Shown here piece after piece: positions 33,745 to 37,800 of a stretch of 64,000 nucleotides of DNA. Within the stretch, counting starts at the first letter, position 1. Every line of letters begins with the position of its first letter. The stretch comes from Tilletiopsis washingtonensis. Taxonomy: Eukaryota; Basidiomycota; Exobasidiomycetes; Entylomatales. The notes beneath the pieces are model-generated. The model was not told where the DNA came from. It did no database searches and was given only the letters and a program-made list of their open reading frames with translations. The position numbers were made by a program, and so were the translations under genes. Location of the stretch: contig NW_020312010.1 of NCBI RefSeq assembly GCF_003144115.1, positions 62,001 through 126,000 of the forward strand, read 5' to 3'.

Positions 33745-34565
<821 letters not shown>

Positions 34566-34733
34566 AGGACACAAAAAGGCCCACCACGTCCTTGCGCTGC
34601 CGGGCGGAGGCGAGGGGACGGTCGCATGCTCCCACATTCCATCACCATCCTGTACGATCTTCCCACCCACGCTCCATCGCAAGCTCATAGCGGTATTTCT
34701 CATTGCCTCATCGTGCGTCGACTGTTGCGCCCG

Positions 34734-36220
34734 TCAGCGCTCGCCAAAGTGGAAGCGGTGCGCGCTCACGACGCCGGGCGGAAGCGCATAGAGGTCGCCG
34801 CTGAAGGCGTGGTTCTCTGCGCCCGTCTCGCGCAGCGAGGCGATGTCCAACGGGTTCTTCTCGTCCGAGGCTGGGCTGGACGCAGGCATGATGTTGGCGT
34901 GCGAGTCTAGCGTGCAGGCAGGCAGTCAGCTCGAGGATGAGACGCAGCTCGGTCAGGCTCACCAACGAGCACGGAGAGATCATCGATGCTTGCTTGCTTG
35001 CTGAGGTTGCGCGCCAGGAACATGGCGTACGTGGCGAGCACTGCAATGGCCGACCACGCAGGGATGAGAAAGGCCCAGTGCCTGTCGCTGGCCGTCAGCA
35101 TTGCGCGCTCGAGCTGGCAGTCCGGCCCGGGGCGACGCACCGTGCAGGATACCAGCCCACTCCGAGTGCGCGCAAAGCACGATCGGGCAGCAGCGCCCAC
35201 AGCAGCCAGAGCAGTGCCAGCAGCGTCATGAGCAGGTAGAGCGTGAAGCCGCATGCCTCGGTGCGCAGCCGAGCGGCAGACTCGGCGTCCTGCAGCGGCA
35301 GGACGGAGCGAGGCGGCGAGGAGGAATAGAGCGAGGCGGCCTTCTCGCCGGTGGCAGAACTGCGATGGCTCGCTTGGCTGGCGCTGGCTTCGGACGAGAC
35401 CAAAGACACCTGCTCAGCGACATGCATCGCCGCCGGCTTCTCCTCCTTGAGCGGTAGAGTTGCCAGCTCCACCAGCCGCAGCGCAAAGTCGCCCGACTGG
35501 CTCTGTGGAGACAGGTCCGCGTGTCAGCAACGCACCTGCGGCAGGAGATCGGTCGCATCACGCACGCCAAAGTCGCTGCGTGCCATGAAGCTGCAAGCCT
35601 TCACATCCTGCGGCCTCAGAGGCGGAGCGTCGGGCTTTGGGCGACCGCGATAGTGCGGCTCGAAGGCATGCCATGGCGCGTGCAGCACGAGCGGCGCGTC
35701 CGCCTCCGCCGGCAGCTCGAAGCGGAACTCGTACGCAATGACCGACTCGCGTCGCCCGTCGGGCCGCATCGCCGGCTCCTCGGTGCGCAGCGTCAGCACA
35801 AAGGCCGAGACGGGCGCCCGGCCGCCGCCTGGCTGCTGCTGCTGCTGATTCGGCAGCGGCGAGTTGGATGCGCCAGCTGCCGGTGCTGCGCGGCGCACGG
35901 TCAGACAGAGCCCGGCGTGCTTGGCGGCCGAGAGCGGCACGGGCAGCGGCTGCTGGTAAGCCTGCGATGCAAAGCCGGCACCGCCGAGTGTCGTCGTGTC
36001 TGTCTGCAGTGTGAGCCGAGCATCGCGGCGCGAGGCGCAGCGGGCTGCCAGACGCACCGAGGAAGCCCGAGAAGAGCGCGGCGCCGTCGTCGAGGATGCG
36101 CAGGGCACTCGAGCTCGAGCCGCCGCGCAGCGTGTCGTTGACGGCGTGCCAGTGCGGCAGCGAGGCCTGCCAGCTCTGGCCCGGCGGTGCTGCGTTGCTG
36201 GCGAAGATGGGCTGCGACAT
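34734..36220 (-). CDS. Predicted CIA30-domain / PIG-P fusion protein
   Basis: Exons on the minus strand: 36220..36058, 35999..35566, 35502..35141, 35087..34963, 34906..34734; 418 aa. Residues about 13-215 match the CIA30 (NDUFAF1-type) beta-sandwich: WHAVNDTLRGGSSSSALRIL, FSGFL, GGAGFAS, FEPHYRGRPKPDAPPLRPQD, ARSDFG then SQSGDFALRL. After a Ser/Ala linker, residues about 280-405 match PIG-P, a subunit of the GPI-GlcNAc transferase that starts GPI-anchor synthesis in the ER: GFTLYLLMTLLALLWLLWAL (membrane helix 1), LLPDRALRALGVGWYPARDR, HWAFLIPAWSAIAVLATYAM (helix 2). The CIA30 end, linker and first PIG-P helix lie in one exon and frame, with no stop between. Met225 (35427) could start a PIG-P-only product. 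Confidence 0.82.
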
Positions 36221-36365
36221 TTGCGGGATCGCTGGCTGGGTGTGGAGGAGGAGAGCGAAGCAGCGGCGCCGCGCGCACGTACCACGCGTTGCGGCACGCG
36301 CAGCGCCCGCCTCTCGGTCCGCGCTCTTGCCTCCCGCCCACCACAAGCACATCGCAGCCACACCC

Positions 36366-37800
36366 ATGCACGGCGTCCGCCGCCCGCTGCGAGCGCCAAG
36401 CGCCGCACAGAAGCTCGCAAAGGCCGCCGCTGAGCAGGAGCGGCTTCGCTCCTACCTGGCCCTCGAGGAGGCCTTCTTTGCCCTGGTGCGCCAGAGCAGC
36501 GGTGCGCCCGCGCCCGCGCCGCCAACCTCACCCCCTTGCCTTGCAGAAGAAAGGCGGCACGCACACGCACGAGGCCCTCGAGACGTGCGGCAAGCTGCTG
36601 GCGCAAAACCCAGAGCTGTACACGGCATGGAACTTCCGGCGCAGCGTGCTCGGCGCCCTCTTTGCGGCGGGCGCGCGCGAGGAGCAGCGCGCGCTGCTGC
36701 TCGACGAGCTGCAGCTGACGCGGGCCGCGCTCACGGCACATCCCAAGGTGTACTGGATCTGGAACCACAGGGCCTGGTGCGTGGGCCAGCTGGCCGGCAC
36801 CGAGCAGGAGGAAGGGGTGGCCGAGGGCGACGCCGGCGCGTGGGCGCAGGAGCTGCGCCTCGTCGATGAGATGCTGCGCCGGGACGGGCGCAACTGTGAG
36901 TGGTGTCGCTGGCGTGGCGGACAGCGCAGCGCCGACATGTCCTCTCTGCAGTCCACGGCTGGAACCATCGACGCTTCGTGCTCTCCCAGACGCCGCCCTT
37001 GGCGTCCACCTCGTCATCGTCGTCGCCGCAGGCCTCCTTTCCGCACTCGCTCCTCGCACCAGAGCATCTGTCGCCCGGCGCACTCGAGGCGCACCTGGCG
37101 CGCGCGGCCGCTGAGCTGGCATACACGCTGCGCCACATTGAGCGCGACTTCTCCAACTTCAGCGCCTGGCACCAGCGTGCTGTCGTGCTGCCGTGCTACT
37201 GGCACGGCAAGGGCTTCGGAGCAGAGGAGCGCGAGCGAGAACGGGACGTCGGTACGTGAGGCCAAGTCGCTGCAGGCCACCAGCGGGCTGACGACGGTGC
37301 TCCGCCTCTCGCAGAGTTTGACCTCATCAAGCAAGCGATGTACACCGATCCGGAGGACGAGTCCATCTGGCGCTACCACGCCTGGCTCGTCGAGCTGGGT
37401 GCGTGACGCCCGGGCGTGCCGTACGCTTCACCCCGCACTGACGACCAGCGGCGCTTCAGCACCTTCCGCTGCCGTGCTTGAGCGCGAGATTGCCCTCATC
37501 GACGAGCTGCTCGAGCTCGAGCCAGCGAGCAAGTGTGCGTCGCTCACGCTGCTCTCACGCCGCGCTCTTAGCTGACAGCCGCCTGCCTATGACGCCCGCC
37601 TCGACGCTTCAGGGTGCATGCAGGCGCTGGCGACGTACAGCGAGCAGCTGGCAAGCCTCTTGGCCAGCGCCGATGAAGAGCAGTCTGCAGCGGCCGCACA
37701 GCATTCGGCACGGGCGCAAGCCCTGCTGCAGCGCCTCGCCAGTGTCGATCCGGATCGAGCAGCGCGGTATCGAGAGCAGGCCGCCGTTTCCGGGCAATGA
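36366..37800 (+). CDS. BET4: Rab geranylgeranyltransferase (type II) alpha subunit
   Basis: Alpha subunit of the Rab prenyl transferase, which with the beta subunit (Bet2) and Rab escort protein adds geranylgeranyl groups to Rab GTPases. Exons 36366..36485, 36547..36895, 36952..37251, 37315..37398, 37460..37534, 37613..37800; 371 aa. Seen: the MHGVRR start typical of this type rather than farnesyltransferase, and the prenyltransferase-alpha repeats TAWNFRRSVL, WIWNHRAWCV, HGWNHRRFVL, FSAWHQRAVV and IWRYHAWLVEL. A Ser-rich loop (STSSSSSPQ) interrupts the third repeat region. It is divergent from the CIA30/PIG-P gene with only 145 bp between starts, and converges on the carnitine acetyltransferase gene with 86 bp between stops. 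Confidence 0.93.

Follow-up and report, generated by a model that had tools for sequence, protein, structure and literature searches.

In a 64,000-nucleotide stretch of Tilletiopsis washingtonensis DNA (contig NW_020312010.1, positions 62,001 to 126,000; hereafter the window), a minus-strand gene encodes a 416-residue protein in which a CIA30 domain precedes PIG-P, a subunit of the glycosylphosphatidylinositol (GPI)-N-acetylglucosamine (GlcNAc) transferase. Reading phase and homology confirm, at the level of the sequence, that the fusion is genuine as a single gene. On balance we consider it probable that the gene makes a single membrane protein, i.e., PIG-P carrying a CIA30 jelly roll on a flexible linker at the cytosolic face of the membrane, where the extra domain would aid assembly or regulation of the transferase.

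According to the original prediction, the exon 35502..35141 reads without a stop through the last CIA30 strand, a Ser/Ala linker and PIG-P helix 1, and this is what we find. The flanking joins are in phase, as it had claimed: five exons between 36220 and 34734 on the minus strand splice to 416 residues, with a methionine at position 225 as noted. All four introns are of the GT-AG type and 56–63 nt long, and the model is supported by reading phase and homology. The product comprises, in order, the CIA30 domain, a 71-residue linker, two PIG-P helices and a tail:

36058..36220, minus strand: exon 1, start codon and N-terminal part of CIA30 (in-phase model, CIA30 match)
36000..36057, minus strand: intron 1, 58 nt, GT-AG (splice model)
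35566..35999, minus strand: exon 2, bulk of the CIA30 domain (model, CIA30 match; end set by the homologs' MARS[ND]F-x-QSG)
35503..35565, minus strand: intron 2, 63 nt, GT-AG (splice model)
35141..35502, minus strand: exon 3, last CIA30 strand (SQSGDFALRL), Ser/Ala linker and PIG-P helix 1 in a single open frame
35082..35140, minus strand: intron 3, 59 nt, GT-AG (splice model)
34963..35081, minus strand: exon 4, PIG-P helix 2 at about 35015-35071 (model, PF08510, hydropathy)
34907..34962, minus strand: intron 4, 56 nt, GT-AG (splice model)
34734..34906, minus strand: exon 5, PIG-P tail and stop codon (splice model)
35464..36172, minus strand, introns inside the span: CIA30-like jelly-roll domain, residues 17-212 (Pfam, signature columns; fold from ortholog P0115)
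35251..35463, minus strand: Ser/Ala-rich linker, residues 213-283 (counterpart in the U. maydis ortholog predicted to be disordered)
35188..35244, minus strand: PIG-P transmembrane helix 1, residues 286-304 (hydropathy, PF08510)
34764..34799, minus strand: tail motif GDLYALPPGVVS, corresponding to DIYDLPPxxVSR of the other fusions and to YDxPxxxVNRVLY of stand-alone basidiomycete PIG-P

The claim that one gene joins the two domains is borne out by Pfam, which calls both in the 416-residue protein: CIA30 (PF08547) with 67.8 bits (cut-off 24) and PIG-P (PF08510) with 89.4 bits over residues 280-371 (gathering cut-off 39.3). Hydropathy places helix 2 at residues 324-342, and the two transmembrane helices are present together with the conserved short loop of PIG-P. 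The model of ortholog P0115 has the corresponding helices at 300-322 and 339-367, with predicted local distance difference test (pLDDT) values of 78-89 by block. An 81-codon linker frame that stays open is by itself unremarkable, as it does so in 17.7% of shuffles; it is the recurrence of this two-domain protein in at least 39 other database entries that argues against chance. A 426-residue model, in which exon 2 ends at 35536 and intron 2 has 33 nt, adds 10 residues before QSG and was dropped, since MARS[ND]F and QSG are separated in homologs by no more than a residue or two; the 426-residue form was used in the fusion database search, the tail profile, the domain BLASTP, one PDB sequence search, the PIG-P and CIA30 trees, the Ceraceosorus alignment and the Lys/Arg count described below.

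The search of related genomes proposed with the original prediction recovered the fusion repeatedly. A database search with the fused protein gave 61 proteins, of which 31 are tagged with both Pfam domains, and two profile searches, one of them covering the best 120 of 342 matches and both with candidate sets restricted by shared words and length, add eight more (P0109, P0115-P0119, P0121, P0122). Eighteen of the carriers have a species name, across 14 genera: Testicularia cyperi, Moesziomyces antarcticus, Parajaminaea phylloscopi, Kalmanozyma brasiliensis, Ustilago trichophora, Ustilago hordei, Tilletiaria anomala, Exobasidium rhododendri, Melanopsichium pennsylvanicum, Sporisorium scitamineum, Sporisorium graminicola, Sporisorium reilianum, Pseudozyma hubeiensis, Pseudozyma flocculosa, Jaminaea rosea, Sympodiomycopsis kandeliae, Mycosarcoma maydis (UMAG_05197; U. 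maydis) and Microstroma glucosiphilum. The 15 of these looked up in the taxonomy, at least one per genus, all belong to Ustilaginomycotina, and no fusion from outside this group is among the matches listed. Malassezia is likewise absent among the matches listed, no search having been aimed at it. Some carriers that have no species name lie on contigs of 2-3 kb and are probably single open reading frames (ORFs). From the last CIA30 strand to the PIG-P motif, the linkers measure 37-79 residues. The record of the Exobasidium rhododendri protein (P0011, 542 residues) holds a third domain, PF06201, possibly from a merged neighbouring gene.

Several lines of evidence assign the C-terminal half to PIG-P. 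The 18.7-Mb genome (32 contigs) yields only this locus both with the family model and with a stand-alone PIG-P query, and the separate intact PIG-P gene that could have undone the original prediction was thus not found in it. PIG-A, PIG-H and Gpi1 are present; a family search of the genome for PIG-C (GPI2) gave no match, but the controls were equally silent. Homology extends beyond the helices: with a profile built from 18 fused tails with the helices removed, 21 of 34 separate PIG-P tails score above the best of 10,200 shuffles and 13 do not (37 separate proteins were tried, three of which have no usable tail). Among the 21, P0097 and P0098 probably represent fragments of fused genes, and P0064 and the Tilletia proteins account for three more; the remaining 16 are mushroom-type or have no species name. 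The PIG-P tree groups P0064 and the Tilletia PIG-Ps with the fused sequences in a single clade (100/99), with 13 others outside it. A tree constrained to keep the fused rows as a clade that excludes the separate rows of Tilletia and P0064 has a p-AU (approximately unbiased test) of 0.024, for a constraint chosen once the tree was known and with long branches.

A 2010 paper lists XP_761344.1 as a 'certainly false-positive' PIG-P match, on the grounds given in its main text that the two helices alone match and that the CIA30 domain gives a mitochondrial look (PMC2912341). The tail homology, the sole PIG-P locus found in the genome and the PIG-P clade weigh against this dismissal. The accession, for which that main text names no organism, we take from its numbering to be the U. 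maydis protein. No report of a CIA30-PIG-P fusion as genuine was found in the literature searched, which included few subscription journals.

With respect to the N-terminal half, the original prediction pointed to CIA30 in complex I assembly, and this connection is not supported. A second CIA30 gene lies apart from the fusion on another contig, C26; its exons read as NDUFAF1-type (CIA30 71.6 bits), and from its motifs we take it to be NDUFAF1. The fused domain was considered as an NDUFAF1 ortholog and rejected: BLASTP gives no match to the C26 protein at E up to 10, and strong matches (E 5e-43 to 1e-19) to stand-alone proteins of Rhodotorula, Cantharellus, Geosiphon, Fusarium and Taphrina, with 32-43% identity over the domain in the five comparisons shown. 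The 18 fused and 22 chosen stand-alone sequences display a common signature (RGG.S.S, LD..TLGGAGFASQ, R.DGR, YRG, M.RS.F..Q.G.F) and have 45 conserved columns, at 25 of which the C26 protein has a different residue or a gap. By sequence, the fused domain thus belongs, as a well-kept member, to a second family of fungal CIA30 proteins that is separate from NDUFAF1. A fold search with ortholog P0115 returned the CIA30 fold, with NDUFAF1 closest and the carbohydrate-binding module CBM11 next; lower-ranking rows, past the first few, were set aside as common jelly rolls. Sequence searches of the PDB gave no match, or two weak, unrelated-looking ones (E 0.74 and 2.2).

Three further records touch this family. 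P0047 and P0061 from Rhodotorula list the CIA30-like domain with a cyclin domain (PF00134), either as a fusion or as a merged model, and P0060, a fungal-type CIA30-like protein on a 1.8-kb contig, is filed under the tree Corymbia citriodora, possibly through contamination.

In many stand-alone members, the domain is followed by a variable linker and a C-terminus resembling a membrane anchor. Among 40 named records (those without a species name and P0037, P0047, P0061 and P0125 being left out), a cysteine at position -4 occurs in 12 of 17 ascomycetes, two of four others and one of 19 basidiomycetes; the sequences are related, and the counts are therefore not independent. Ascomycete ends such as CAIL, CSMM, CGLL and CGCI would be prenylated as CaaX-type boxes. 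Over all CIA30-only proteins, many of which are truncated ORFs, the count is 30 of 86. The stand-alone protein of Naganishia onofrii has a hydrophobic tail, and Rhodotorula and relatives have Trp-rich ends with a high amphipathic moment (nine C-termini computed, with no control). A C-terminal anchor past the domain is a family feature that we propose here; in the fused protein it takes the form of the PIG-P helices.

These observations suggest that the CIA30-like domain and PIG-P act together at the ER (endoplasmic reticulum) membrane. PIG-P is a small two-helix subunit whose termini are both cytosolic, and the jelly roll, joined to its N-terminus by what is probably a flexible linker, would be kept at the cytosolic ER face, the same face where the transferase works. 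A cytosolic position is predicted because the domain lies before helix 1 and no obvious targeting sequence precedes it. With regard to a mitochondrial presequence, residue counts give no Lys or Arg in the first 30 residues of the window protein and 0-5 in seven other fused proteins, and a strand starts at residue 7 in the ortholog model. In smut-related fungi, the domain would be tethered to the GPI-GlcNAc transferase with PIG-P as its anchor, in place of the anchor of its own that it has elsewhere. During assembly, NDUFAF1 binds a loop of a membrane subunit in its cleft. By analogy, the fused domain may grip a cytosolic loop of a transferase partner, or the sugar-lipid substrate, and help to assemble or regulate the enzyme. 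We favour a clamp on a partner loop over binding of a sugar or sugar-lipid; carbohydrate binding by the fused domain is possible in view of the modelled fold.

A number of observations weigh against a single protein with a role in the transferase. A pull-down of the Trypanosoma brucei transferase gave Arv1 and an E2-like protein, and CIA30 is absent from the main text of that paper (PMC7971885), although trypanosomes need not have the fungal family. Several of the 12 ascomycete ends are not canonical CaaX boxes (CLGR, CFGF), some stand-alone relatives (Cantharellus, Melampsora, two chytrids) have little or nothing beyond the domain, and a CaaX-type end is by itself no sign of the ER. Tilletia (P0067, P0070) and P0064 carry PIG-P lacking CIA30, so the two halves can exist apart; P0064 groups with the window protein among the fused ones (92/86), on long branches. 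In Ceraceosorus guamensis, protein P0037 shows no more of PIG-P than a degenerate helix 1 that follows the CIA30-like domain. Its hydrophobic end aligns to PIG-P helix 1 with a mean score of 59.5, a value reached by none of 2000 shuffles (best 51.2); the PIG-P motifs are lost, Pfam makes no call, and the model may stop early at an intron. A quick CIA30 tree places this protein within the fused group, together with Cantharellus P0132 on a long branch, with modest supports. Furthermore, the linker may contain a frame break in U. hordei-like sequences, as suggested by P0041, which stays in the CIA30 frame to its end, by P0063, which begins ahead of PIG-P in a different frame, and by the NCBI model of the U. 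hordei protein, P0026, from which most of PIG-P helix 1 is missing. Together, the Ceraceosorus, P0064 and U. hordei-like cases suggest that the CIA30 and PIG-P halves can part. Finally, methionines occur in 18 of 38 measurable linkers, including that of U. maydis, and the methionine-free set consists largely of close relatives; the count over the full set lowers the chance of a single product slightly.

The main rival to PIG-P with a functional CIA30 clamp is that the CIA30-like domain needs any tether and that PIG-P became a neutral substitute for a CaaX or tail anchor that had been lost, unrelated to GPI synthesis. The very diverse anchor-like ends of the stand-alone relatives agree with this, as does P0037, which keeps a degenerate helix 1 in a model that holds nothing else of PIG-P. 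However, no PIG-P besides this anchor was found in the genome, and the fusion persists in the 14 named genera; we therefore judge neutral replacement to be unlikely, if worth serious attention.

Less probable still is that the locus makes two products, with an internal start or a second transcript as the additional or sole source of PIG-P by itself, and with a long form that is minor or regulatory. The original prediction had raised this for Met225, which does lie in the window linker, and part of the case stands with the 18 methionine-containing linkers. A frame break, if real, would make separate products unavoidable in U. hordei, and a transcript that keeps intron 2 would encode a truncated CIA30 product. 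That product would lack the last CIA30 strand, as the frame terminates at VRC* ahead of it, and the other 20 of the 38 linkers hold no methionine (40 were tried, including the window protein; P0026 and P0122 were not measurable), while those present occur at differing positions. The internal AUG is therefore not conserved, which weakens the proposal.

A chance PIG-P match to two hydrophobic helices of a mitochondrial CIA30 protein is hardly credible, because the argument from helices alone (PMC2912341, main text) is opposed by the tail homology, the lack of another PIG-P found in the genome, the separate NDUFAF1-type gene and the clustering of the fused proteins with separate Tilletia PIG-Ps. 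An annotation that merged two adjacent genes is just as improbable: the additional domain of P0011 could speak for such merging, but the junction lies inside a single exon here and short unannotated contigs (P0001, P0003, P0008) give both domains in one protein, probably from one ORF.

The preferred reading, a CIA30 clamp welded to PIG-P, offers a partner that can be tested for a fungal family which, although not NDUFAF1, goes by a complex I name in databases. It further adds a candidate element to the enzyme that opens GPI biosynthesis, whose cross-talk with signalling differs between fungi (PMC11294708). It also argues against the printed false-positive verdict on what is apparently the same architecture (PMC2912341, main text). 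We tentatively extend it, as a possibility that we ourselves doubt, to the whole family: throughout fungi, CIA30-like proteins may be an unrecognised membrane-anchored partner of the GPI-GlcNAc transferase, a regulator or assembly clamp that a prenyl group or helix keeps at the cytosolic ER face in most lineages and that is welded to PIG-P in smut-related fungi.

At the locus itself, a divergent gene with protein prenyltransferase alpha-subunit repeats (PPTA) lies close upstream (36142-37575, plus strand), and a convergent ribosomal protein S12/S23 exon (34289-34690, plus strand) lies just past the stop codon of the fusion gene. The end of P0135 (174 residues, Joint Genome Institute (JGI) metagenome, 5 members), KACSFMARSDFGVRDATDLLPQVRC, equals exon 2 of the window gene read into intron 2; the window species or a close relative is therefore present in public metagenomes.

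Compared with PIG-P/Gpi19 (PF08510), the fused protein has the same two-helix hairpin, conserved short loop and tail with the basidiomycete YDxP...V motif, but differs in about 280 extra N-terminal residues with the CIA30 domain; separate PIG-Ps named in the profile search have 108-206 residues (the search admits only lengths near 80-254). With NDUFAF1/CIA30 (PF08547) it shares the CIA30 fold, as seen in ortholog P0115, whereas the species' own NDUFAF1-type protein is encoded separately on C26 and is unlike it in 25 of the 45 signature columns. Similarity to the bacterial module CBM11 is one of fold alone, at about 11% identity. The stand-alone fungal CIA30-like proteins, often annotated as 'NADH:ubiquinone oxidoreductase intermediate-associated protein 30', have a domain 32-43% identical in the five comparisons shown, the 45 conserved columns and, in many cases, anchor-like C-termini; these, however, are a CaaX-type box, a tail helix or an amphipathic stretch, and not PIG-P.
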